Positions 20,694-32,593 are shown, counted from the stretch's first letter. The stretch is DNA of 64,000 bases from Archangium gephyra (GCF_001027285.1 NZ_CP011509.1:6658501-6722500); one strand, 5' to 3'. The notes: a model not told the origin generated them from the letters alone. Program-made: numbers and translations.

Positions 20694-20743
20694 AAACCGG
20701 CGGCACCCTTGAGAATTCAAGGGTTTAGAAGGGCCGCCGGTTT
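20694..20743 (+). terminator. Composite hairpin after hisS
   Basis: AAACCGGCGGC (20694-20704) pairs with GCCGCCGGTTT (20733-20743), an 11-base perfect stem. Nested inside is a second hairpin, ACCCTTGA (20705-20712) with TCAAGGGT (20717-20724). It lies just after the hisS stop and upstream of the promoter of the next operon, so it probably separates the two transcripts. Confidence 0.6.
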
Positions 20744-20770
20744 GATGTGTTGGGACGGTGACCTTACAAT
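20742..20770 (+). promoter_or_regulatory. Sigma70-like promoter of the peptidase-PqqD-HprK operon
   Basis: TTGATG (20742-20747), 17 bases, then TACAAT (20765-20770): four of six and five of six consensus matches with ideal spacing. The start codon at 20783 would follow the likely transcription start by only about six bases, so the first gene may be read leaderless; no Shine-Dalgarno is visible. Confidence 0.5.
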
Positions 20771-20782
20771 CCCGTTCCAGTC

Positions 20783-21193
20783 ATGCCGCCAGACTGGACG
20801 CAGGGACGTCGAGACGAGGGCCCGTGCTGGATTCCCATCGAGGGAGACAGCATGTGGCCCTCGTTGCGTTCGGGGGACGTGGCGCGGGTGGAGCCGTGGG
20901 CCGGGGAGCTGCGCCCGGGCGAGGTGGTGCTCGCGCGCTTCGCGCATGCCCTGGTGGTGCACCGCGTGCGGCGGTGTGATGGGGACACGTGCGTGCTGCT
21001 CGGGGACAACGCCCGGGCGGAGGATCCCCCGCTGCCGCGCGAGCGGGTGCTGGGACGGGTGGGGCTGGTGCGCCGGGGCGGCGAGGTGCTCGAGCCGGGC
21101 CGGTGGGACCGGGGGCCGAGGCGCTGGGGCCGCTGGCGCGTGGAGTGGAAGCGTGGGCTGGCGGCGCTGCTCGGAAGACGGAGGCGCGCATGA
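20783..21193 (+). CDS. S24/S26-type peptidase (soluble, Ser-His dyad)
   Basis: A 136-aa small peptidase of the LexA/signal-peptidase fold. The nucleophile motif is EGDSMWPSL with Ser23, followed by GDVARVEPW, HRV with His60, and GDN at 74-76. His in place of the usual bacterial Lys is the pattern of archaeal/ER SEC11 signal peptidases. No membrane anchor is visible, so it should be cytoplasmic, unlike export signal peptidases. It overlaps the PqqD-like gene (ATGA). In this operon it is a candidate leader peptidase for the small peptide at 25081; that role is inferred. Confidence 0.75.
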   Translation: MPPDWTQGRRDEGPCWIPIEGDSMWPSLRSGDVARVEPWAGELRPGEVVLARFAHALVVHRVRRCDGDTCVLLGDNARAEDPPLPRERVLGRVGLVRRGGEVLEPGRWDRGPRRWGRWRVEWKRGLAALLGRRRRA

Positions 21194-21480
21194 GCTTCCG
21201 CCCGGACAGCATCCCCCGCAGGCGCGAGGGCGCGGATGGCCAGCGCTTCGGCGCGGACTTCGTGGTGCTGGATGCGGAGGGGCGGATGCTGCGGGGGCTC
21301 AACGAGACCGCGGCGCGCGTCTGGGACCTGAGTGACGGCAAGCGCACCGCGCGGGAGATCGCCGCCCTGGTGGCGCACGAGTACGGCGTGGATGTGGAGC
21401 GGGTGCTCGAGGACTGCCTGCGCTTCCTCGAGCGGCTCGCGGGACATGGACTGTTGGACGCGGAGGAGGTGCTTCGATGA
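21190..21480 (+). CDS. PqqD-like (RiPP recognition element) protein
   Basis: A 96-aa stand-alone PqqD-family protein. Such proteins bind leader peptides of ribosomally made, modified peptides through a winged-helix fold. Visible family features are the hydrophobic FVVLDAEGRMLRGLNETAARVW strand/helix and the LERLAGHGLL tail. It overlaps both neighbours by four bases (ATGA at either end), so it is tightly coupled to the peptidase and lipoprotein genes. No radical-SAM or PQQ synthesis gene is nearby, so it does not act in PQQ synthesis. Confidence 0.85.
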   Translation: MSFRPDSIPRRREGADGQRFGADFVVLDAEGRMLRGLNETAARVWDLSDGKRTAREIAALVAHEYGVDVERVLEDCLRFLERLAGHGLLDAEEVLR

Positions 21481-21983
21481 GAGCGCTCGTGATGGCGTCG
21501 GTGGTCCTGTGGCTGTCCGCCTGTGACGAGGGCCGTGCTCCTCCAGAGCCTCCGGGTGGGGGAGGGGAGACGCCCGCGGAGCCCGGGCCCGTGGTGCCCG
21601 CCGAGGTGTCGTGGAATGGGATCTCTCCGCCGGTGAGGCCCACGCCGCCACTGCCTCCGCTGGTGGGCTCGGCGGACGTCACCTACGTGCCCGAGGGCGC
21701 GCGCGGCATGTCGGAGGTGACGGCGGTGGAGGTGCGGCTGCGCGTGAGTGGCATCGTCGGCTCGGCATCGGTGGACGCGGAGCTGCTGGCCCCGGGCCCC
21801 GCCGCGTACGAGCGCCACACCCGGAAGGTGGAGGCCGTGCCCACCGAGCAGCGCGAGCTCGTCTTCAGCATGCCCGTGGCGGGGACGAACATCCCCATCC
21901 ACGGCCTGAGCGGGAGCTGGGAGGCGCGCTTCTTCGTCGATGGCGTGCCCCTCACCACCGCCACCTTCACCCTGGATCGCTGA
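21477..21983 (+). CDS. Predicted lipoprotein, unknown function
   Basis: A 168-aa protein with a lipoprotein signal (VVLWLSAC, lipobox Cys at about residue 16), a Pro/Gly-rich linker, and a beta-rich domain that looks Ig-like. Its start overlaps the PqqD-like gene and it lies 12 bases before the large propeller gene, so it probably belongs to the same product pathway. Function unknown. Confidence 0.7.
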   Translation: MRALVMASVVLWLSACDEGRAPPEPPGGGGETPAEPGPVVPAEVSWNGISPPVRPTPPLPPLVGSADVTYVPEGARGMSEVTAVEVRLRVSGIVGSASVDAELLAPGPAAYERHTRKVEAVPTEQRELVFSMPVAGTNIPIHGLSGSWEARFFVDGVPLTTATFTLDR

Positions 21984-21995
21984 GGAGGCCCCGCC

Positions 21996-24900
21996 ATGAA
22001 CGCACGCCTGTTCGCGCTCCTGACCCTGCTGCTGCCCGCCGCCGCGCTCGCCCAGAACGCGTGGACCGTCACCCCGGTGGAGGGCTCGGCGGTGATGGGG
22101 GAGATCTCCTCGCTCGTCTTCGAGGTCCGCAACGCCTCCACCAGCACCCGGCCCCTCAACGAGCTCAGCCTCGCCGTCGACGGTGCCGCCTATGACGTGG
22201 ATGGCGGTGACGCTCCGGCGGGCTGGACGGTGAGCACCATCGATCGCAAGGAGCGCCGCATCACCTACCGGGCGACGGGCTCCTGCACCCCCGGGCCCCT
22301 GGGGCTCGCGCCGGGAGCGTCCGCGCGCTTCACCTTGCGGCTCGTGGGACTCGCGGCCAATGCCGACACCACCGATGCACTGGTGGGAGGGAACAATCCC
22401 ACGAAGTCGAGCATGGCCCTGGACACGTGCCCCGGCGGCGTCACGTTCACGGGCGACCCGGCGCTGGCCCGCTGGAAGCGCGTGGGCCTGTCCGCCACCC
22501 TCACGGCCCTGCCGCGCACCCTTCAGCTCGGGAGCGACGTCACGGTGCAGCTCCTCGTGGTGAACCGCTCGCTGGTGAACCAGGGGGGCATCACCCCGAG
22601 TGGCCCGGCCGTGGTGGGCAGCGCACGCTTCGACACGGTGGTGTCGGCGTTCTCTCCGGCCTCGCTCTCCCTCGCGCCCGGAGCCACCGGGAGCTTCACC
22701 GCGAGGCTGCGGTCCACGCTGGAGGGGACCTCTGTCTTCCAGGCCTCGGCGGGCAACGGCACGGTGAGCACCGCGCTGACCTCCTCCCTGCAGGTGAACG
22801 TGAGCAGCTTCCCGGCGCTCGCCGAGGTGCTTCCCACCAACATCATCACGGGCGATACGGTGACGCTCCGGCTCACCGTGAGCAACCCGTCCACCGTCAA
22901 CTACCGGGACGTGGTGCCCCGGACGCCCGTCTTCCTCGGCACCGCGGTGCCCACGCTCGTGAGCGGCCCCACGCCCGCGAAGTCCACGACGCTCAACGCC
23001 GGCACGTCCGTCAGCTTCGTCTGGAAGTACAAGCTGGACGGGCCCGTGGGTTCCTCCTTCCAGTTCGAGGCCCAGGCGGACGCCACGCGCGCGGGCGTCC
23101 CCCTCTCCACCAGCCGGGTGCTCTCGGGGCTGGGGCGGATCGTGGAGCACCGGCTCTTCATCGAGCCCGCTTCCGTCATCGGCGGCGTCACGAATCGCTC
23201 GCTCCGCTACGTCGTCTACAACGGCGGCACGGTGGAGATCCGCAAGGTGAAGCTGCTCACGCCCGACACCACCTTCTTCAAGGCGTCGGCCACCCCCTTC
23301 GCCAGCGACACCAGCGGGTGGACGGCCGTCGCCACCACCAGCAACCCGAGGGGCTATGAGTGGACGGTCCCCGCCGGGCAGTCCGGCATCACCTCGGGCC
23401 AGCAGCGCGGCTTCACCCTCGACTACGCCACCCTCGGCGCCGTCACCCGGGATACGGCCTTCCTCCACCAGATGGAGCTCACGCTGGCCGATGGTTCCAC
23501 CGTCTTCCGCGTGGACGCGCCCGTCACCCTCTTCGTCAACCGCGTGGTGCCCGAGGTCGAGTCCCTGGTGGCGATCGCCGGGCAGAACCGCAACACGCTG
23601 GTGTGGACCAACCCCTCTGATCATGACGGGGTGCTCGTGCTGCGCGCCGTGGGCGCCGCCCCCAACACCGCTCCCGAGCCGGGCCGGCGGTACGTGGCGG
23701 GCGAGACGCTCGGCAACGCGAAGGTGGTGTACTCGGACGAGGTGAGCGTGGCCTCCACCCTCGAGGACTCCGGGCTCTCCAATGGCACGGCCTACGTCTA
23801 CCGGGTCCACAACCACGACACGCTGTACCGGTACTCGCCCGGCAACGCGCCGCAGTCGCTCGGGCTGAAGTCCACGCCCACCAGCCGCGGCGCCGGCCAG
23901 CCGCTCTGGTGCTACAGCGTGGGCTTCTCCACGTTGCAGCAGCCCGTCACCGAGCTCGGCGTGGGCATCTTCAGCTCCAACACCTCGGGTCGCGTGACGG
24001 CCAACCTGACGAACACGGCCACGCCCGTGCTGGATGGCAACGAGCGCTGGCGGCCCGTGCAGCTCCAGGGCGCCGTGCAGAGCCGCTTCCCCATCGTCCC
24101 GCTGTCCGGCCGATCCGGGCAGTACATCCTCACCGGCGACCAGGCGGGCTACACCCAGGCCATCCGCACCGACACCGGGGAGCTCCTCTGGCGCTCCACC
24201 ACGCCGCTCGGCACCATCCAGTCCTTCCCGGTGGCGCAACTCCACGACACCACCGCCACCAACGCGGCCTACAAGGCGGCCTTCCCCGGGAAGGACCTGG
24301 CCTTCTTCGCCACCCGTCTGAGCACGGGCACCGACAACAAGGTCGTGGCGCTCGATGCCGCTACCGGCGCCCCCGTGTGGACGTACGCCCCGGGGGACCT
24401 CGGAATGGTGAGCGGCGGCTTGTTGATCGACTACACGTACAACCGGCTGTACGTGGGCGCCCGCTCCAATGGCGGCGCACTGGCCTCGCTGCGCATCCTG
24501 GACTCCCTCACCGGCGCCGAGCTGGCCCGGCTGTCGCTCGGGGATATCGATCACGGTCTCGTGCGCTACGGCTCGGCGACGCCCCTGGCGCTCGTGACGA
24601 ACAGCGATGGCACCGTGTACGGCGTCGACATGGTGGGCATGAAGGTCTCCTGGAGCGCGGCCGTGGCGAGCCGTCCCTCGGCCTCGGTGCCCGCGTTCTC
24701 CCAGTTCGCCCGTCCGGTGAATGGAGGCTTCGTCGTGAGCATCCTGGGCGCCACCGACGCCGAGGGCAGGGTGGAGCGCTGGAGCGTCACCACCAGCACC
24801 TCGGGCACCACGGTGACGAAGCTCTGGTCCACTCCCATTCCCAGCCCGTCCGGCTCCTTCTCGTTCACGAGCGGCGGCGTGCAGCGGCTCTACGTCGGCG

Positions 24901-25073
24901 GCAAGGACGAGAAGCTGCACGAGCTGGACATCAACACCGGCGTGGACGGCAAGCAGCTCTCGCTGCCCGGCGCGCTGGCCATCGGCACGCCCACGGTGGA
25001 CAGCACCGTGTCGCGCCTCCACGTGGGCACCCAGGATGGCCGCATCTGCGCCTTCCCGGTGCCGTTCCCCTGA
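21996..25073 (+). CDS. Large secreted Ig-like/PQQ-type beta-propeller protein
   Basis: A 1025-aa exported protein with the signal peptide MNARLFALLTLLLPAAALA. Residues about 20-520 are repeated beta-sandwich modules of the CARDB or DUF11 kind; 520-620 look like an Fn3 module; 640-1020 have repeated segments such as VALDAATGAPVWTY and LHVGTQDGRICAF, as in PQQ-type/Kelch-like beta-propellers (eight-bladed in PQQ enzymes). No PQQ-binding active-site residues could be confirmed, so a structural or binding role is more likely. It sits 12 bases after the lipoprotein and seven bases before the small peptide gene. Confidence 0.75.
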   Translation: MNARLFALLTLLLPAAALAQNAWTVTPVEGSAVMGEISSLVFEVRNASTSTRPLNELSLAVDGAAYDVDGGDAPAGWTVSTIDRKERRITYRATGSCTPGPLGLAPGASARFTLRLVGLAANADTTDALVGGNNPTKSSMALDTCPGGVTFTGDPALARWKRVGLSATLTALPRTLQLGSDVTVQLLVVNRSLVNQGGITPSGPAVVGSARFDTVVSAFSPASLSLAPGATGSFTARLRSTLEGTSVFQASAGNGTVSTALTSSLQVNVSSFPALAEVLPTNIITGDTVTLRLTVSNPSTVNYRDVVPRTPVFLGTAVPTLVSGPTPAKSTTLNAGTSVSFVWKYKLDGPVGSSFQFEAQADATRAGVPLSTSRVLSGLGRIVEHRLFIEPASVIGGVTNRSLRYVVYNGGTVEIRKVKLLTPDTTFFKASATPFASDTSGWTAVATTSNPRGYEWTVPAGQSGITSGQQRGFTLDYATLGAVTRDTAFLHQMELTLADGSTVFRVDAPVTLFVNRVVPEVESLVAIAGQNRNTLVWTNPSDHDGVLVLRAVGAAPNTAPEPGRRYVAGETLGNAKVVYSDEVSVASTLEDSGLSNGTAYVYRVHNHDTLYRYSPGNAPQSLGLKSTPTSRGAGQPLWCYSVGFSTLQQPVTELGVGIFSSNTSGRVTANLTNTATPVLDGNERWRPVQLQGAVQSRFPIVPLSGRSGQYILTGDQAGYTQAIRTDTGELLWRSTTPLGTIQSFPVAQLHDTTATNAAYKAAFPGKDLAFFATRLSTGTDNKVVALDAATGAPVWTYAPGDLGMVSGGLLIDYTYNRLYVGARSNGGALASLRILDSLTGAELARLSLGDIDHGLVRYGSATPLALVTNSDGTVYGVDMVGMKVSWSAAVASRPSASVPAFSQFARPVNGGFVVSILGATDAEGRVERWSVTTSTSGTTVTKLWSTPIPSPSGSFSFTSGGVQRLYVGGKDEKLHELDINTGVDGKQLSLPGALAIGTPTVDSTVSRLHVGTQDGRICAFPVPFP

Positions 25074-25080
25074 GACCTCG

Positions 25081-25278
25081 ATGACGCGCGGCCACGAGCC
25101 AGCTTCCGGGGGAAACCCGCCCACGCCCGGCTCGAAGGAGCCGGTGACGGCCCCGCGTGCGCGCGTCTATGAGCCGCCCGCGGTGCTGTGGGAGCAGCCC
25201 TTCGTCGCGCTCGCGCAGGTGTCCTTCCACGACGACTACGGCTGCGACATTCCGGGCTCGTGCTCGGACCTGCCGTGA
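25081..25278 (+). CDS. Small candidate RiPP precursor with lasso-type leader motif
   Basis: A 65-aa peptide from ATG 25081, ending GCDIPGSCSDLP. A weaker alternative is GTG 25144 (44 aa) with AAGGAG three bases before it. The segment YEPPAVLWEQPF fits the lasso leader motif YxxPxLxxxGxF at Tyr1, Pro4, position 6 (Val) and Phe12; the Gly at 10 is Gln. The short C-terminal part has two Cys four residues apart, several acidic residues and Ser. It lies between the propeller and kinase genes with seven- and one-base gaps. Modification and function are inferred; no cyclase is encoded nearby. Confidence 0.7.
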   Translation: MTRGHEPASGGNPPTPGSKEPVTAPRARVYEPPAVLWEQPFVALAQVSFHDDYGCDIPGSCSDLP

Positions 25279-25279
25279 G

Positions 25280-26086
25280 GTGCTTCCGTCCCATGGGGTG
25301 ACGCTCTCGCTGGCGGGTTGGACGGTGGCCTTCGAGTGCGAGGACGCGGCGCTGGAGGAGTCGCTCGTCCGGGCCTTCCCGGCGTTCCGCACCGAGGCGC
25401 CCGCGCAGGCACGGATCCGCGTGCTGCGTCCGGCGGCTCCGTTGCCTGTGTCCACCGTGCGCTCCCTGCCCGAGCCCCGTCCCGTCCCCGGTGGCGGCCT
25501 GCGGGTGGAGGGTGAGGACTACGTGGCGGACATCGCCCCCGAGGGCCGGAGCGCCACGGTGACGGGCGAGGGCCGCTTCCCGGTGGACACGGTGTTGAAG
25601 GTGATGCTCGCGGGCGAGCTGGCGCGTCGCGGGGGCCTGCTGGTGCACGGCGTGGCGGTGGAGCACGAGGGCCGGGCCGCGCTGTGGACGGGGCACTCCG
25701 GGGCGGGGAAGAGCACCCTGGGCGCGCTGTGGGCGAAGGCCGGGGGCACGGTGCTGACGGACGAGCTGGTGGCGGTCTGGCCCGAGGCGGACGGCTGGCG
25801 GGCCGCGGGGACGCCGTGGAACGTGGGAGTTCCTCGCGAGGCCTCGCTGCGCGTGGTGGGGCTGCTGGGTTGGGACACGGCCTCGCGCTGGGAGCCCGTG
25901 GGCGCGGGGGAGGTGGCCCGGGTGCTGCTGCTCAACGCGCTCCTGCCCGAGGCCTCCGCCTCCGGACGCCGTTACCTGCTGGGCACGGCGAGCCGTCTAC
26001 TCGCGGGTGTGGAGACGGCCCGGCTCGTCTTCGCGCGGGATGCCTCCGCCGCGGACGTGGTGCGCGCCCGGCTGGGAGCGGAGTGA
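25280..26086 (+). CDS. HprK-like kinase domain protein
   Basis: A 268-aa protein whose C-terminal half resembles HPr serine kinase/phosphatase: the P-loop is GHSGAGKST near residue 138, followed by LTDELVAV with the expected acidic residue. HprK proteins without a sugar phosphotransferase partner occur in RiPP clusters, where some phosphorylate the peptide's C-terminal residue. No HPr or PTS gene is in the window. The frame is open upstream, but GTG 25280, one base after the peptide's stop, gives a compact protein. A GTG at 25298 is also possible. Confidence 0.8.
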   Translation: MLPSHGVTLSLAGWTVAFECEDAALEESLVRAFPAFRTEAPAQARIRVLRPAAPLPVSTVRSLPEPRPVPGGGLRVEGEDYVADIAPEGRSATVTGEGRFPVDTVLKVMLAGELARRGGLLVHGVAVEHEGRAALWTGHSGAGKSTLGALWAKAGGTVLTDELVAVWPEADGWRAAGTPWNVGVPREASLRVVGLLGWDTASRWEPVGAGEVARVLLLNALLPEASASGRRYLLGTASRLLAGVETARLVFARDASAADVVRARLGAE

Positions 26087-26091
26087 CGCCG

Positions 26092-26114
26092 ACTGGTCCG
26101 ACAGTCGGACCAGT
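26092..26114. terminator. 23-base palindrome after the HprK-like gene
   Basis: ACTGGTCCGAC, one A, then GTCGGACCAGT: an almost perfect palindrome five bases past the stop, between convergent genes (26086 plus, 26170 minus). It can form a hairpin with a five-base loop and nine-base stem. No T-tract, so termination is inferred from position; an operator is the alternative. Confidence 0.5.
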
Positions 26115-26169: not shown

Positions 26170-27057
26170 TCAGCTCGGGCCTGAAGGACGCGGCAACTGG
26201 TTCAACAAGGTGACGAGCCGGGCCGCGCCCTCGATGAACTCGAGTTGGAAGCGGCGTCCGTCCACCACGCTCACCCTCACCTGGGTGGGGGAGAGGAGCT
26301 GGACGCCCTTCCTGGCCGGGATGGCATGGAGCGGAAGGTGGATGGGTTTTCGTCCCGTGGGCTTCCAGACCAACCGCCTGGGGGTGAGCCAGAACCACCC
26401 GGAGCTCAGGTATTGGCTCAGGAGCGCGAAGAGGGGGAGGAGCATCCACAGCAGGCCCCACCCGGAGGGACTGGACAGCCAGACGATGGCGAGAAGGACC
26501 GCCAGGGCCTCGAGCTTCGCATCCCGCAGGTATCCGCCCCAGTGCAGTACCTTCTCCTCGGAGGAGACAGCGGGAGGGAGCAGGTTCTGCTCGAGCCGAG
26601 CGAGGTTCTCCGCGAGCCGGATCCCCTCGGTCATCCACTGGGAATCCCCGCTGTCGAGGCGCCTGTCCGTGAGCACCTCCAGCCGGGTCCGGAGCCTCTT
26701 GATCTTCCGGGCCAGCTCGAGTGCTGGCTCCAGGCCCTCGGATGCGCCTTCCACCTGGAGCCGCTGATGGAGGCGCGTCAGGGCCTCGACGATCGCGGGC
26801 TCGTCACGGACCACCTCGCGCAGCGGTGCGAGTCTCGCTTGCAGCAGGTGCTCCCATTGCCTCCGGCGCAGGGCCTTCTCCAGGAGCGCGTAGCGCCCGA
26901 GCGCGGCTTCCAGCACCTCGATTCCGCCTTCGAGCTGGCGCCGGAGGTCCGCGCTCACGGGGAACGGAATGCGGGAAGCCCGTACTTCCGGGGCGGGAGG
27001 AACAGGAGGGGCGGTGCCCTTCGGCGGAGCCGTGGGCTTGAGTGCCTCCTCGGACAT
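26170..27057 (-). CDS. Membrane protein with PH-like domain, paralogous to upstream gene
   Basis: A 295-aa protein. An N-terminal helical, coiled-coil-like region (about 30-150, PVSADLRRQLEGG onward) is followed by two membrane helices (about 190-225) and a PH-like segment with GWFWLTPRRLVWKP. It aligns along most of its length with residues about 370-665 of the protein encoded just upstream, including DLRRQLEG versus DVRRQLEG. The two genes look like a tandem duplication. Function unknown. Confidence 0.75.
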   Translation of the reverse strand: MSEEALKPTAPPKGTAPPVPPAPEVRASRIPFPVSADLRRQLEGGIEVLEAALGRYALLEKALRRRQWEHLLQARLAPLREVVRDEPAIVEALTRLHQRLQVEGASEGLEPALELARKIKRLRTRLEVLTDRRLDSGDSQWMTEGIRLAENLARLEQNLLPPAVSSEEKVLHWGGYLRDAKLEALAVLLAIVWLSSPSGWGLLWMLLPLFALLSQYLSSGWFWLTPRRLVWKPTGRKPIHLPLHAIPARKGVQLLSPTQVRVSVVDGRRFQLEFIEGAARLVTLLNQLPRPSGPS

Positions 27058-27171
27058 GGCCGACGGTGTGGTGATGAGCCGCTCCTCCGGTGCGCCCCCA
27101 GGCGTTCCCGCCAGGAAGGTGGCCCTCGCTCATGGAACTGGGGAGTCCGTGCCAGGCCGCTCCTTTGGGAC

Positions 27172-29169
27172 TCAGGGGAGGGACGAGCGTTCAGTCCGGA
27201 GCGGCGCTACCGCCCTCCTCAACTGCCTGGCGAAGCGTCTGGCCCGGGAGATGAACTGGAGGTGGAGGATGTGCCCGTCCGCCAGGACCACCTTCACGCC
27301 CTTGGGGTAGCGGAAACCGCTGCCATCGGGGTGACGGATGTCGTGCAGGGAAACCTGGAGGGGATCCCCTCGGGTGGGCAGCCAGATCAGCCGGCTCTCG
27401 GTGAGCCAGAAACGCCCGGAGCCGCGGTACTGGAACCAGAAACAGAGGGCGGTGAACACCATCCATGCGCCCCAGAACCCAAAGCCGGGTGCCCCCGCCT
27501 CGCCGCGAATTCCCAGGGGCGTGGCGCAGTGGGTGACGGAGAAACCGAGCAGCAGCGCCATCCCTGGCAGGGACAGGGACGGAGAGAACCTCCCGGAGCA
27601 CAGCAGCTTCTCTCCGGGCGCGAGCGGAGCGGGAAGGGACTGGACGACGCTCCGTTCGAGCCGTTCGAGAGGGGTCTCCGAGGGGCCGAGATGGTGGCGC
27701 GTGAGTGCTCCCACGCGGGCCCGGAGTCCCTCCACCTCGTGGGCGAGTACGAGTGCCGGCTCGGTTTCGCTCCATCCCTCGGAACGAGCGCGATGATGAA
27801 GACGCTCCAGTGCCTCCACGAGCGCGGGCTCCTGGCGGAGGGTCTCTCGCAGCATCTCGAGCCGTGGCCGCAGGTGGAGCTTCCACTTCGGCTTCTGGAG
27901 CGCTTCTTCCAGGGCGCGGTAATGCGCATGGGCGGTCTCCAGCACTTCGAGCCTGCCCTCCAACTGGCGGCGGACATCCTCGGACGACAGGTGGACTTGC
28001 TGCTTCTCCTCGTGTGGCGGTGAGGCTTGGAGCCATGGGGCCGGCCCGGAGGTGGACGGGTCGGAGACCAGGAGTGCCTGGTATCGTGGCAGGGCCTGGG
28101 CCTGGGCCATCGGGAGATGTGGCTGCACCTGGAACGGAATGAGCTGGAGGAAGGTTCTCTTGTCACCCTTGAACTTCACTTCGAACCGCAGGCGCCAGCT
28201 CAGCTCACTGCTCCTGAGGATGAAGCTGGTGGGCGCGGTGGAGGGGAGGGCGATCTTCACGAGAGGCAGCTCGAGGAGCTCGCGCTTGAGCAACGCCCGG
28301 TTCGTGCACGTCAGGAGGGTTCCCATGTGCACGACCCTCTCTTTCGTGCTGCTCCCAGTGCGGACCCCGTAGTAGTAGGGCCCGGAGCCGTATCTCTTGA
28401 TCCTCGCCAGCTCGACGTACTCCATCGAGACCGAGAGCTCATGCTCAGGCAGCTCCTGGTCGGGCCGCAGGTGGATGCGCAGTCCGGTGCTTCCTCCCGG
28501 TGCCACGGACCTCGGATCGATCCACAGGTTGCCCAGGGAACGCGCCCAGACGGTCTCGCGGCTGTGCCGGCGATAGAGGACCGCACCTCCGACGCTGATG
28601 ATGCCGAGCAGAACGAAGAGAACGGGGTCTTGCTCGAAGAGAAAGCGCCTCAGGACGAAGAGCAGGGCGAGCACGGCCACGAGGGGGAGGTCCCCCATGT
28701 CATTGCTGGGGGCGGTCACCTCCAGGCCGTGCCAGGCGTCCGGATGCCCGGTGGCGATAGCGATGGGGACGGGAGACGCCATCTCGGGGGCCTCCAGGAA
28801 GAAGGGCACGTCCACGTGGGGACACGGGTCCTGGTACCCGGAGACGACGGCCTCGGCCCTCAGACGCCAGTCCACGGACACGAGTTGCCCATGGTAGGTG
28901 AGGGGCTCGCTCGGGGCCTCGAGACGGAAGGTGTAGTGCAGCTCCTGGCCGGCAATCCACTCTTCCCCTTCGTTCAAGGTGAGCAGGCACTCGTCGGGAC
29001 TCTTGTCGGAGTCGCCCCAGCCTCGAGCCTGCCACCGCCAGCTCAGGGTCAGTTGCCTGCACCGGCACCGCTCGAGGACCTTCACCACGACGCTGCCGGT
29101 GATGAGCTCTCCAGGCGCATAGGTGCGATCGCTCTTGTCCAGTGTGAGCTGGAGCTCACATTTCGCCAT
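27172..29169 (-). CDS. Arrestin-like domain protein fused to membrane/PH-like module
   Basis: A 665-aa protein. The N-terminus (about 1-130, MAKCELQLTLDKSDRTYAPGE) resembles the arrestin/Spo0M fold in its strand pattern and the YAPGELITGSVVV loop. Two membrane helices lie near 155-200, a beta-rich part follows, and the C-terminal ~295 residues are the paralogue of the gene downstream, again ending with two helices and GRFWLTESRLIWLP. The start ATG at 29169 gives a compact N-terminus; the frame continues upstream but runs into the divergent miaA region. Function unknown. Confidence 0.75.
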   Translation of the reverse strand: MAKCELQLTLDKSDRTYAPGELITGSVVVKVLERCRCRQLTLSWRWQARGWGDSDKSPDECLLTLNEGEEWIAGQELHYTFRLEAPSEPLTYHGQLVSVDWRLRAEAVVSGYQDPCPHVDVPFFLEAPEMASPVPIAIATGHPDAWHGLEVTAPSNDMGDLPLVAVLALLFVLRRFLFEQDPVLFVLLGIISVGGAVLYRRHSRETVWARSLGNLWIDPRSVAPGGSTGLRIHLRPDQELPEHELSVSMEYVELARIKRYGSGPYYYGVRTGSSTKERVVHMGTLLTCTNRALLKRELLELPLVKIALPSTAPTSFILRSSELSWRLRFEVKFKGDKRTFLQLIPFQVQPHLPMAQAQALPRYQALLVSDPSTSGPAPWLQASPPHEEKQQVHLSSEDVRRQLEGRLEVLETAHAHYRALEEALQKPKWKLHLRPRLEMLRETLRQEPALVEALERLHHRARSEGWSETEPALVLAHEVEGLRARVGALTRHHLGPSETPLERLERSVVQSLPAPLAPGEKLLCSGRFSPSLSLPGMALLLGFSVTHCATPLGIRGEAGAPGFGFWGAWMVFTALCFWFQYRGSGRFWLTESRLIWLPTRGDPLQVSLHDIRHPDGSGFRYPKGVKVVLADGHILHLQFISRARRFARQLRRAVAPLRTERSSLP

Positions 29170-29307
29170 CGGCCACCCCCGGGAGAGCCCCTCGCGTCCT
29201 GAAGCCAGATGAACCCAAGATGACAGGCCCGAGGTATTCCGGAGGATCGTTCCGCGGGGTGGCTGGAACGTCCGCTGGTTCATGGTACGAGCGGGAGTGG
29301 AACGCCG

Positions 29308-30222
29308 ATGAAACCCTTCCTCACCGTCATCGCGGGGCCCACCGCGTCCGGGAAGACCGCGATCGCCCTCGAGCTCGCCCGCCGCGAGGGTGGGGAGATC
29401 GTCAGCGCGGACTCGCAGCAGGTGTACCGGTGTTTCGACATCGGGACGGCGAAGCCCTCGGCGGAGGAGCTGGCGGCCGTGCCGCACCACCTCATCTCCG
29501 TGGTGGAGCCGCTCGAGCCCTTCTCCGCCGCCGAGTACCAGCGCCGGGCCGACGCGGCCATCGAGGAGATCAGCTCGCGGGGCAAGCGTGTCTTCGTGGT
29601 GGGCGGCACGGGCATGTACCTGCGCATCCTGCTGCACGGCCTGGTGGAGGCGCCGGGAGCGGACCCCGAGCTGCGCGCGGAGCTGGAGGCGCTCGCCGCC
29701 GCCGAGGGCCGGGAGGCCGTGCACCGCAAGCTCGCCGAGGTGGATCCAGAGACGGCCGCGAAGCTGCCGCCGAGGGATCTGGTGCGCACCATCCGGGCGC
29801 TGGAGATCCACAAACAGACGGGCAAGCCGGCCTCCGAGTTCCGCAAGGAGCATGCGTTCTCCGCGGACCGGTATCCCTTCCGGATGCACGTGCTGTCGCC
29901 GCCGCGCGAGGAGCTGTACCAGCGCATCGACACGCGCACCGCCGCCATGTTCCAGCACGGGCTGGTGGACGAGGTGCGCGAGCTGATCGCCCGGGGCTAC
30001 GGGGAGGCGGCGCCCATGGGCAGCGTGGGGTACGTGCAGGCGAAGGCGGTGGTGGACGGGGCGCTGACGGTGGAGGAAGCCATCCAGCAGGCGGCCCAGG
30101 AGACGCGCCGTTACGCGAAGCGGCAGCTCACGTGGTTCCGCAAGGAAGCGGGAGCGAGCTTCGTGGAGCCACCGTATGACGTGTTGTTGAAGGCGGAAGC
30201 CTCCGCGCCCGAAGAGAGGTAG
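29308..30222 (+). CDS. miaA: tRNA dimethylallyltransferase
   Basis: A 304-aa enzyme adding a dimethylallyl group to A37 of tRNAs that read codons beginning with U. Family motifs: P-loop GPTASGKT (10-17), DSQQVYRCFDIGTAKP, GGTGMYLRILLHGL, and RYAKRQLTWFRK near the C-terminus. Length is normal. It diverges from the arrestin-like gene over a 138-base gap that holds an imperfect inverted repeat (about 29246-29275). Confidence 0.95.
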   Translation: MKPFLTVIAGPTASGKTAIALELARREGGEIVSADSQQVYRCFDIGTAKPSAEELAAVPHHLISVVEPLEPFSAAEYQRRADAAIEEISSRGKRVFVVGGTGMYLRILLHGLVEAPGADPELRAELEALAAAEGREAVHRKLAEVDPETAAKLPPRDLVRTIRALEIHKQTGKPASEFRKEHAFSADRYPFRMHVLSPPREELYQRIDTRTAAMFQHGLVDEVRELIARGYGEAAPMGSVGYVQAKAVVDGALTVEEAIQQAAQETRRYAKRQLTWFRKEAGASFVEPPYDVLLKAEASAPEER

Positions 30223-30343
30223 GGCGCGCGCTACCGATCGCCCCCTCGGTGCGCGGTGGCTCCAGTGGGCGGGCCGAGCCCGACGAGCGCCTGGGCATGC
30301 CTAATTTGCTCCTGGGCTTCTCTTGCCTGGGGAGCGAAGCGAA

Positions 30344-32593
30344 ATGGATGCGCACGCGGGGTCGGCGGCACCAGAGCGGCATCCCCGGCTGTCGAGGGGG
30401 TGGACGAGGTGGCGTCAGGCGGGTCTTCTCCTCCTGGAGCACCTGGCGATCGCCGGGGGTTATGTGCTGCTGGGCTGGCTGGGAATGTGGCTCATGCCCG
30501 ATGGCCGGTTGATCACCATCTGGCCAGCGGGGGGCTTCGCTCTCGCGATGCTCCTCCTGCGTGGCACGTCGCGATGGCCTGCCATCCTGCTGGGGTCGCT
30601 GCTCAGCTCCTACTGGCTCGTCCCCTGGAGATGGGTCGTCCCGGAGGGCGTCCCCCTCTCCGCCGTCCTCGAGGCCACCACCACGCTCCTGACGAGCATG
30701 GCACGTGCGTTCTCGACCGTGGTGGGGGTCTGGCTTGTGGACCGGTACGTGGGAACCCGGCGTTGGCCCCATACCGTGCGGGAGGTCATCGGCTTCGTCC
30801 TCGTCGCGGGCCTCGTTCAGCCGGCGATCGCCGCCCTCTCCACCCACGCCGCGCTGCTGGGGGTGGGGCTCGTCGAGCCCGGGCCGTTGTTCCTCCGGCA
30901 GACCTGGATCTGGTTCAACGCCAATAGCGCGGGGATCATGGCCATGACCCCCCTCTTCCTGGCGTTCGCCGAGGGTCCGACAGGGCGTCCGCACCGGACC
31001 CGCTGGGAGGTGGCGCTGGTGGCGGCCTTCGCGCTGATCACCGCCTTCATCGCCCTCGATGTCCGGCGGCGGTTCAACGATATCGGCATCCCGTTGTCCT
31101 ACCCGATGATCCCCATCATTCTCTGGGCGGCCATGCGGTTCGGTTCCCAGGGCGCGGTCCTCACCAATCTGCTCTGGGCCTGCGTGGCGTTCTACTCCAT
31201 GTATCTCTTGAAGGTGGGAGAGACGGAGCTCGGACGGGGCTTCACTCATTACCAGGCGCGGTTCGTGGTGCTCACCGCCTTCATCCTCGTCCTGGCCGCC
31301 GCCTTCGAGGAGCGTCACCAGATGCAGCAGGCCCTGGAGAAGGAGCGGGAGGGCCTCGAGGCGCGGGTGGCCGAGCGGACCCGGGAGCTCGCGCGGTTCC
31401 TCTCGCTGCTGCACTCCTCGCTGGAGTCCACCGCGGATGGCCTGCTCGTCGTCGATCGGAAGGGCCACATCACCGCCATGAATCAGCGTTTCGCCGAGCT
31501 GTGGCGGCTCCCCGCGTCCGTGCTCGAGAGTGGCGATGATGCGCGGGCGTTGGGCTTCATTCGCGAGCAGCTGGTGGAGCCCGACGTCTTCCTCTCCCGC
31601 GTGGAGTACCTCTACGCGCATCCCGAGCTGGAGAGCGAGGACGAGGTCCAGCTCACGGACGGCCGCGTCTTCCATCGCGTCTCCCGGCCCCAGCTCCTGG
31701 GAGAGGAGATTGTCGGGCGGGTGTGGAGCTTTCGCGACATCACCCTCCGGCGACGGGCGGAGGCCGAGAGGGATCGCCTGCTCGTGGAGGAGAGCCGGGC
31801 GCGGCAGGAGGCGGAGCGGGCCTTCCGGGAGGCGCAGAAGGCGCTCGGGGTGCGTGACGAGTTCCTGTCGATCGCGGCCCATGAGATGAAGACCCCGCTG
31901 ACGTCCATGAAGATGCAGTTCCAGCACCTTCAGCGGCTGGTGGCGGGTGCATCGGGAGGCCAGGTGGAGGCCGCCCGGCTGAAGCCCGTGGTCGCCGCGG
32001 CGCTGCGGCAGATGCGGCGCTTCCAGGAGCTCGGAGATCAACTCCTGGACATGACGCAGCTCTCCACGGGAAGGCTCGAGCCCCGGCACGAGCCGCTCGA
32101 CTTCCAGGAGGTCGTGGCGGAGCAGCTCGAGTTGCATGCGGAGGCCGCGCGCAAGGCCCGCGCGGAGCTCCGGTTGGAGTGCGGGGGCCCGATCCCAGGC
32201 GAGTGTGATCGCCTGCGTCTGGAACGGATCGTGGGCTGCCTGCTCTCCAATGCGATCAAGTTCGGCGCTGGCAGTCCCCTCACGATCCGGCTCGAGGCCC
32301 AGGAGAGCCGCGTGCGCCTGCGGGTGGTTGATCAAGGCATTGGCATCGCGCCAGAGGACCACGAGCGGATCTTCGAGAAGTTGGAGCGCGCGGTGGATTC
32401 GCGGCACTACGGTGGGTTGGGGCTCGGGCTGTGGATTGCCCGTCAGAGCGCGGAGGCGCTCGGAGGCCACATCACCGTGGAGAGCGAGCTGGGCAAGGGT
32501 GCCACCTTCACCGTGGAGCTCCCGCGGAGTTGCCAGTCGCTTTCGATGCGGAGGATCGATCCGCCCGCGGAGCCGGCACGGCCCACCGCCTGA
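30344..32593 (+). CDS. MASE1-PAS sensor histidine kinase
   Basis: A 749-aa membrane kinase. About eight helices (20-310) form a MASE1-type sensor, followed by a coiled coil (LEKEREGLEARVAERTREL), a PAS domain (about 365-480), the H-box with AAHEMKTPL, and the ATPase domain with LLSNAIKFG, VDQGIGIAPED and GLGLGLWIA. Start ATG 30344 follows GGGAG by about ten bases. No cognate response regulator is adjacent; nearby candidates are the FAD-receiver fusion at 33653 and the receiver at 37772. Confidence 0.92.
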   Translation: MDAHAGSAAPERHPRLSRGWTRWRQAGLLLLEHLAIAGGYVLLGWLGMWLMPDGRLITIWPAGGFALAMLLLRGTSRWPAILLGSLLSSYWLVPWRWVVPEGVPLSAVLEATTTLLTSMARAFSTVVGVWLVDRYVGTRRWPHTVREVIGFVLVAGLVQPAIAALSTHAALLGVGLVEPGPLFLRQTWIWFNANSAGIMAMTPLFLAFAEGPTGRPHRTRWEVALVAAFALITAFIALDVRRRFNDIGIPLSYPMIPIILWAAMRFGSQGAVLTNLLWACVAFYSMYLLKVGETELGRGFTHYQARFVVLTAFILVLAAAFEERHQMQQALEKEREGLEARVAERTRELARFLSLLHSSLESTADGLLVVDRKGHITAMNQRFAELWRLPASVLESGDDARALGFIREQLVEPDVFLSRVEYLYAHPELESEDEVQLTDGRVFHRVSRPQLLGEEIVGRVWSFRDITLRRRAEAERDRLLVEESRARQEAERAFREAQKALGVRDEFLSIAAHEMKTPLTSMKMQFQHLQRLVAGASGGQVEAARLKPVVAAALRQMRRFQELGDQLLDMTQLSTGRLEPRHEPLDFQEVVAEQLELHAEAARKARAELRLECGGPIPGECDRLRLERIVGCLLSNAIKFGAGSPLTIRLEAQESRVRLRVVDQGIGIAPEDHERIFEKLERAVDSRHYGGLGLGLWIARQSAEALGGHITVESELGKGATFTVELPRSCQSLSMRRIDPPAEPARPTA

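Follow-up and report, generated by a model that had tools for sequence, protein, structure and literature searches.

Linear polyphosphorylated peptides (LPP), described by Popov et al. (May 2026, PMC13381572), are ribosomally synthesised and post-translationally modified peptides (RiPPs) of Bacillota, to which they are said to be confined and where their role is given as unknown. Their machinery comprises an archaeal-type signal peptidase with Ser-His-Asp residues (LppS), a discrete RiPP recognition element (RRE; LppB), in which N33 and D70 were shown to matter, and an HprK-like kinase (LppK); the clusters also have an NTP-transferase and an MsbA-like exporter, both core genes, and no cyclase (PMC13381572). 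The precursor carries the motif YxxPxVLxHQxIxFETxxS, is cleaved after T-1 and is phosphorylated by LppK on Ser3 (PMC13381572). Here we compare with this system a six-gene operon of Archangium gephyra, which lies on the + strand at positions 20783-26086 of a 64,000-nucleotide stretch (NZ_CP011509.1:6658501-6722500; called the window throughout) in a genome of 12.49 Mb on a single contig. We consider it likely that this operon makes an LPP-like phosphorylated peptide matured by an RRE, a kinase and an S26 peptidase, with a lipoprotein and a secreted propeller protein as its likely partner. The initial annotation of the window had proposed RiPP-like logic without a cyclase and possibly a new class of peptide. 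The first proposal is supported for the RRE, the leader protease, the peptide kinase and the leader-bearing peptide, and the cyclase is indeed absent; the second does not apply, since the enzymatic logic, as predicted from the gene products, is that already published in 2026 for the LPP of Bacillota (PMC13381572).

The six genes run in a single direction in the order S26-like peptidase, PqqD-like protein, lipoprotein, propeller protein, peptide and HprK-like kinase, and reading of the sequence confirmed their coordinates and their tight spacing, given in the initial annotation as ATGA overlaps or gaps of 1-12 bases. The peptidase gene (20783-21193, +; 136 aa) overlaps the PqqD-like gene (21190-21480, +; 96 aa) by ATGA, which in the same way overlaps the lipoprotein gene (21477-21983, +; 168 aa, lipobox LSAC). 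After a gap of 12 bases comes the propeller gene (21996-25073, +; 1025 aa), then, after 7 bases, the precursor peptide gene (25081-25278, +; 65 aa) and, after 1 base, the kinase gene with a GTG start (25280-26086, +; 268 aa). A domain scan found no lasso, lanthipeptide, radical-SAM or ABC genes within the operon, in agreement with what had been listed as missing.

The precursor peptide matched no Pfam or NCBIfam model, and a PDB search with its profile gave nothing meaningful. Its homologues are 44-66 aa long and consist of a variable N-terminus, an almost invariant leader block (consensus Y-x-[PA]-P-x-[IV]-[LV]-W-E-Q-x-F-[VI]-A-L-A-x-x-S in the homologue alignment) and a short tail. In the window peptide the leader core Y30-A45 is YEPPAVLWEQPFVALA and the predicted core Q46-P65 is QVSFHDDYGCDIPGSCSDLP, i.e., 20 residues within a range of 15-24 for all predicted cores; the predicted core of the Myxococcus xanthus peptide (AM003) is QISQCNIPGESECIP. 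For the latter the calculated [M+H]+ is 1617.725 in reduced form, 1615.709 as disulfide and 1697.691 when reduced and singly phosphorylated, and for the reduced window core it is 2154.874; a pyroGlu would lower these values by 17.027. Core position 3 is Ser, and exactly two Cys are present in the core, in 39 of 39 homologues. The pooled ratio of nonsynonymous to synonymous change (pN/pS) was 0.11-0.23 for the leader block, 0.61-1.04 for the N-terminal spacer and 0.30-0.85 for the core. Purifying selection on the leader, the lack of which had been named beforehand as an argument against a working peptide, is therefore strong, and low values in the leader with higher values in the core are as would be seen where a protein binds the leader and the product itself evolves faster.

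The window leader, YEPPAVLWEQPFVALA followed by QVS, falls in the exact LPP register (Y1, P4, V6, L7, Q10, F12 in place of I, A16 in place of T, and S19), and therefore cleavage is predicted after Ala45 and phosphorylation on Ser48, which is core residue 3. On searching 2.77 million six-frame residues of the DNA collected for the analysis with a strict regular expression for this register, all 77 of 77 matches were this peptide. It may be noted that the expression was written so as to accept Ala at -1 and Phe at position 12; the scan therefore measures specificity and does not count as an independent discovery.

The three predicted maturation proteins agree with the same system. The protease has Pfam match PF00717 (Peptidase_S24, 5.8e-11) and a match below cut-off to the archaeal model sigpep_I_arch (4.9e-07), and a PDB sequence search with it gave no match. 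Its residues Ser23, His60, Asp75 and Asp81 are invariant in 32 orthologues, and it has no transmembrane segment (maximum KD19 of 0.78), which suggests a soluble, LppS-like leader peptidase of the S26/S24 archaeal signal-peptidase type. The stand-alone PqqD-like protein matches PF05402 (2.6e-17) and reaches 28 of the 46 bits required by the NCBIfam PqqD model; as an RRE it has PDB profile matches to TbiB1 (5.8e-11), PqqD (1e-10) and LppB (9x8z, 2.6e-09). Its N38, D75 and F79 align with N33, D70 and F74 of LppB, and N38 is kept in 18/18 and D75 in 17/18 sequences. The kinase, predicted to act on peptide Ser (LppK/PadeK-like), scores below threshold against the HprK-related models TIGR04355 (4e-07) and TIGR04352 (1.5e-06). 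It has the conserved motifs H123, Walker A GHSGAGKST (138-146), D161/E162 and G177/P179, and its AlphaFold2 model (pLDDT 93.6) matches structurally both HprK/P and PEPCK, which have a common fold. As the kinase and the PqqD-like protein fall under every NCBIfam cut-off, no curated system is named for them.

By analogy with LPP, the PqqD-like RRE would bind the leader at Y30-xx-P33-x-V35 and present the precursor, the HprK-like kinase would phosphorylate Ser48, and the soluble Ser-His-Asp peptidase would cut between ALA and QVS to free a two-Cys core of 15-24 residues. We infer the leader binding, the phosphorylation and the cleavage site from homology with LPP together with residue conservation. 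Since both Cys are invariant, an oxidising destination is suggested, and after the peptide has left the cytoplasm the two would probably form a disulfide loop. As regards export, the locus has no linked exporter, and the S26 protein is soluble.

The six-gene set is conserved as a unit. The order hisS, S26, PqqD, lipoprotein, propeller, peptide, kinase, miaA is found in Archangium-type genomes (part of Archangium), Myxococcus, Pyxidicoccus, Corallococcus and Citreicoccus, and among the 59 nearest genomes the peptide, the kinase and the PqqD-like protein co-occur. In seven genomes without the system (G001, G004, G005, G012, G019, G032 and G125) hisS and miaA are both present with 0 of the 6 genes between them, so that the set is all-or-none at this position. 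The peptide profile matches 55 of 195 Myxococcota genomes (including 27 with genus label g23, 16 with label g26, and 3 of the 6 from the window's own genus), and a leader-pattern scan of the genomes of 84,980 species gave 25 confirmed loci, every one myxobacterial. A further match in G029 (L012/L025) was rejected as spurious, its partner genes being absent. The synteny search that the initial annotation had called for thus gives many genomes in which hisS and miaA flank the gene set, and the peptide is kept at the related loci, where its absence would have counted against the proposal. Because the same order recurs in this way, and because the strict leader motif matched the peptide only, the operon is more than a chance assembly.

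The secreted 1025-aa protein has a signal peptide, an Ig-like stack and a predicted C-terminal BamB/PQQ-like beta-propeller (Pfam PQQ_2/BamB-like, 2.3e-07; AlphaFold2 model with pLDDT 82 and pTM 0.63). The C-terminal domain matches BamB with TMt 0.73, and this is the meaningful structural match; the top Foldseek matches of the full protein are long repetitive proteins without a global fit and were set aside. It resembles the BamB/PQQ-like propellers in the fold of this domain and differs from them in being fused to the Ig-like stack and signal peptide and tied to a RiPP-like precursor. The lipoprotein has no Pfam match; in those type I loci that were examined (i.e., loci of the kind present in the window, as opposed to type II described below) its gene adjoins that of the propeller, and it is also found beside unlinked propeller genes. 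At E below 1e-50 the propeller is present in 13 of the 59 genomes, including 12 of the 12 with a type I peptide. From this co-occurrence we suggest that the mature peptide has its likely partner in the lipoprotein and the Ig/propeller protein, which would be its receptor, carrier or client. The earlier idea that the secreted proteins are the destination of the peptide has thereby gained support, as propeller and peptide occur in the same genomes even where their genes are not linked, although what is seen is an association only.

Some observations weigh against this assignment. Four lineages (G010, G014, G023 and G028) have no type I S26 gene and would need the type II S26 protein acting in trans, and G010, an incomplete metagenome-assembled genome, yielded no type I kinase either. 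In a small and poorly supported tree the window RRE does not group with LppB. Residues -3 to -1 are ALA in Myxococcaceae and not FET; the LPP-type Thr at -1 occurs only in the distant orthologues G085 (...EPLT/AAS, slash at the predicted cut) and G023 (...EALT/QVT). Domain scan and synteny showed no NTP-transferase in the operon or the syntenic loci (the distant G085 locus does carry one, PF14907, 1.8e-40), and the operon lacks any ABC transporter gene that could be the MsbA-like exporter, the flanks being hisS and miaA. Also, the hypergeometric value for propeller and peptide co-occurrence (1.2e-11) is uncorrected for shared ancestry.

Set beside the Paenibacillus alginolyticus lpp cluster (PMC13381572), the locus therefore shows both likeness and difference. 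Shared are the archaeal-type signal peptidase, the HprK-like kinase, the absence of a cyclase, a discrete RRE in which the YxxP-holding Asn and Asp are present, and the leader register Y1-P4-V6-L7-Q10-[IF]12-cut16-S19. The host phylum is Myxococcota as against Bacillota, the Myxococcaceae peptides have Ala at -1, and the core is short with two Cys (15-24 aa vs 45 aa in LppA); in place of the NTP-transferase and MsbA-like exporter, the Myxococcaceae locus has the lipoprotein and the Ig/propeller protein. We use the term LPP-like, and do not count the peptide as a member of LPP, because the exporter and the NTP-transferase are absent, FET is missing with Ala at -1, and two Cys are present in all 39 cores.

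Other explanations may be weighed against the same evidence. The peptide could be an intracellular signal or adaptor in a regulatory phosphorelay, its phosphorylation controlling whether the propeller protein is expressed or exported, as would suit a locus without an exporter, a peptide gene that adjoins the propeller gene in most loci, and the regulatory role that HprK has in its founding family. A dedicated leader peptidase with an RRE, however, suits maturation, as do a conserved leader with a variable core and the two invariant core Cys, and processing has been shown by LPP biochemistry (PMC13381572); we regard a phosphorelay as unlikely. Judged a shade less probable still is that the propeller and lipoprotein are unrelated neighbours retained by operon drift and that the system is made of the four biosynthetic genes only. 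The propeller genes of G023 and G026 lie on contigs other than that of the peptide, and no propeller is listed in the published description of the Bacillota LPP clusters (PMC13381572), which would fit such drift; yet propeller and peptide are still both present in these two genomes, G010 carries two modules of a propeller with a peptide, each on its own contig, the G020 propeller still adjoins a type-II-like peptide, and type II loci pair their peptides with giant FG-GAP proteins.

The remaining two explanations concern the chemistry of the core, and we hold both to be highly improbable, the second even more than the first. An invariant Ser and two invariant Cys within one short core could serve a thioether, with phospho-Ser48 as an intermediate that is eliminated to dehydroalanine, to which a core Cys adds to give a lanthionine-type ring; such kinase-then-lyase logic is known in class III/IV lanthipeptides. 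The operon, however, has no lyase or cyclase domain, elimination is not known for HprK-like kinases, and the LPP product retains its phosphate (PMC13381572). As for a lasso peptide, with a B2 protease and a C cyclase acting from elsewhere in the genome, the YxxPx[V/I] leader, the lasso RRE TbiB1 as best score of the RRE profile and the HprK-like kinases known in paeninodin clusters are in its favour, and the phrase lasso parts in the initial annotation was only loosely right. The LPP register is nevertheless the better fit: the leader has Leu and not Thr at -2, ring position 7-9 shows no conserved Asp/Glu (15-residue cores have I7-P8-G9 there), and the domain scan of the operon showed neither a B2 transglutaminase-like protease nor an Asn synthetase-like macrolactam cyclase, although Asn synthetase was not searched genome-wide. 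Transglut_core3 (PF13471) has 0 matches in G002 and G028, which are 2 of the 13 peptide-bearing genomes and have the operon, with weak partial matches in the others; lasso enzymes acting in trans were rejected as likely on account of these two genomes. Paeninodin-type phosphorylated lasso peptides share with our locus the discrete RRE, the HprK-like kinase and a [Y/W]xxPx leader, but the operon has S26 in place of the cysteine protease, no B2 protease or macrolactam cyclase, and Tyr in the leader where Trp is typical of paeninodins. The SynChlorMet, HPr-rel-A and GAK cassettes (TIGR04248/04249, TIGR04352, TIGR04355) are alike in that their PqqD-like and HprK-related models score, all under curated cut-off, and differ in gene content, as compared by model names and general knowledge. 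PQQ biosynthesis is also a poor parallel, the radical SAM protein PqqE being absent from the operon by domain scan.

A second related cluster (L110, C1:10685000-10701000) was found in the window's own genome. This type II cluster has a PqqD-like protein, a 1936-aa Ig and FG-GAP secreted protein, and a 50-aa two-Cys peptide (RPYRPPAIRSEKILVANLFASQGQECEPNCDIRPPDGDF). Genes for an HprK-like kinase and an S26 protein complete it, and next comes one that resembles EamA-type transporter genes. Related clusters, of which several include a radical SAM/SPASM enzyme, are present in other Myxococcota families, again beside giant secreted proteins (1609-2946 aa), and all four giant proteins scanned have FG-GAP repeats by Pfam. 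Type II leaders are unlike those of type I and retain the LPP register only loosely. In G020 (L169:3896-7654) the gene directly after a type I propeller and lipoprotein encodes a type-II-like Cys-rich peptide, and an S26-like gene adjoins. The distant G085 locus (L109:6108-13465) has S26, PqqD, peptide, propeller, lipoprotein and kinase, with NTP_transf_5 upstream and a radical SAM/SPASM enzyme downstream, and therefore further modification is likely there. Two HprK-like/S26 neighbourhoods (L158:15-1490 and L160:6249-9100) with other small Cys peptides (leaders KPYTQPQL... and IYEPPQIEV...), one of them with a radical SAM gene, are possibly further subtypes.

Of the elements that flank the operon, a putative sigma-70-type promoter (20742-20770, +) consists of TTGATG at 20742-20747 and TACAAT at 20765-20770 with a 17-nt spacer, and lies 12 nt upstream of the first ATG; of 16 orthologous loci, most have a -10-like TACAAT or TAGACT directly 5′ of the start of the S26 gene. 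Both of the boundary elements in the initial annotation exist, namely the hairpin on the hisS side and a perfect 23-bp palindrome directly 3′ of the kinase gene (26092-26114; ACTGGTCCGAC-A-GTCGGACCAGT). The latter is possibly a terminator or an operator, and was not found 3′ of the kinase gene in six relatives. Several genes (26170-32593) separate the kinase from miaA in the window, and in Myxococcus and Corallococcus miaA is almost directly 3′ of the kinase.

What looks new is the phylum, the presence of a second (type II) cluster in this genome, and the fact that such peptides are repeatedly paired with large secreted Ig and beta-propeller proteins, which come from two propeller families. 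The recurrent pairing with secreted propeller proteins may be the part that is really new; we found no description of it in the literature, most subscription journals being outside the search. We suggest tentatively, with less confidence than for the LPP-like assignment and as something well short of established, that phosphopeptide RiPPs are widespread in Myxococcota and that their products serve secreted Ig and beta-propeller proteins as ligand, cap or cofactor, with the pairing present in at least two propeller families (BamB/PQQ-like and FG-GAP). The locus places the predicted enzymatic logic of LPP in Myxococcota, including the genetically tractable Myxococcus xanthus, on a core of only about 15 residues; therefore a short product amenable to mass spectrometry and a specific partner hypothesis, the propeller protein, are directly testable. 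This may account for the orphan PqqD, HprK-like and S26 genes beside giant secreted proteins in Myxococcota. If true, the propeller pairing would give LPP-type peptides their first concrete biological partner and take LPP chemistry beyond Bacillota.

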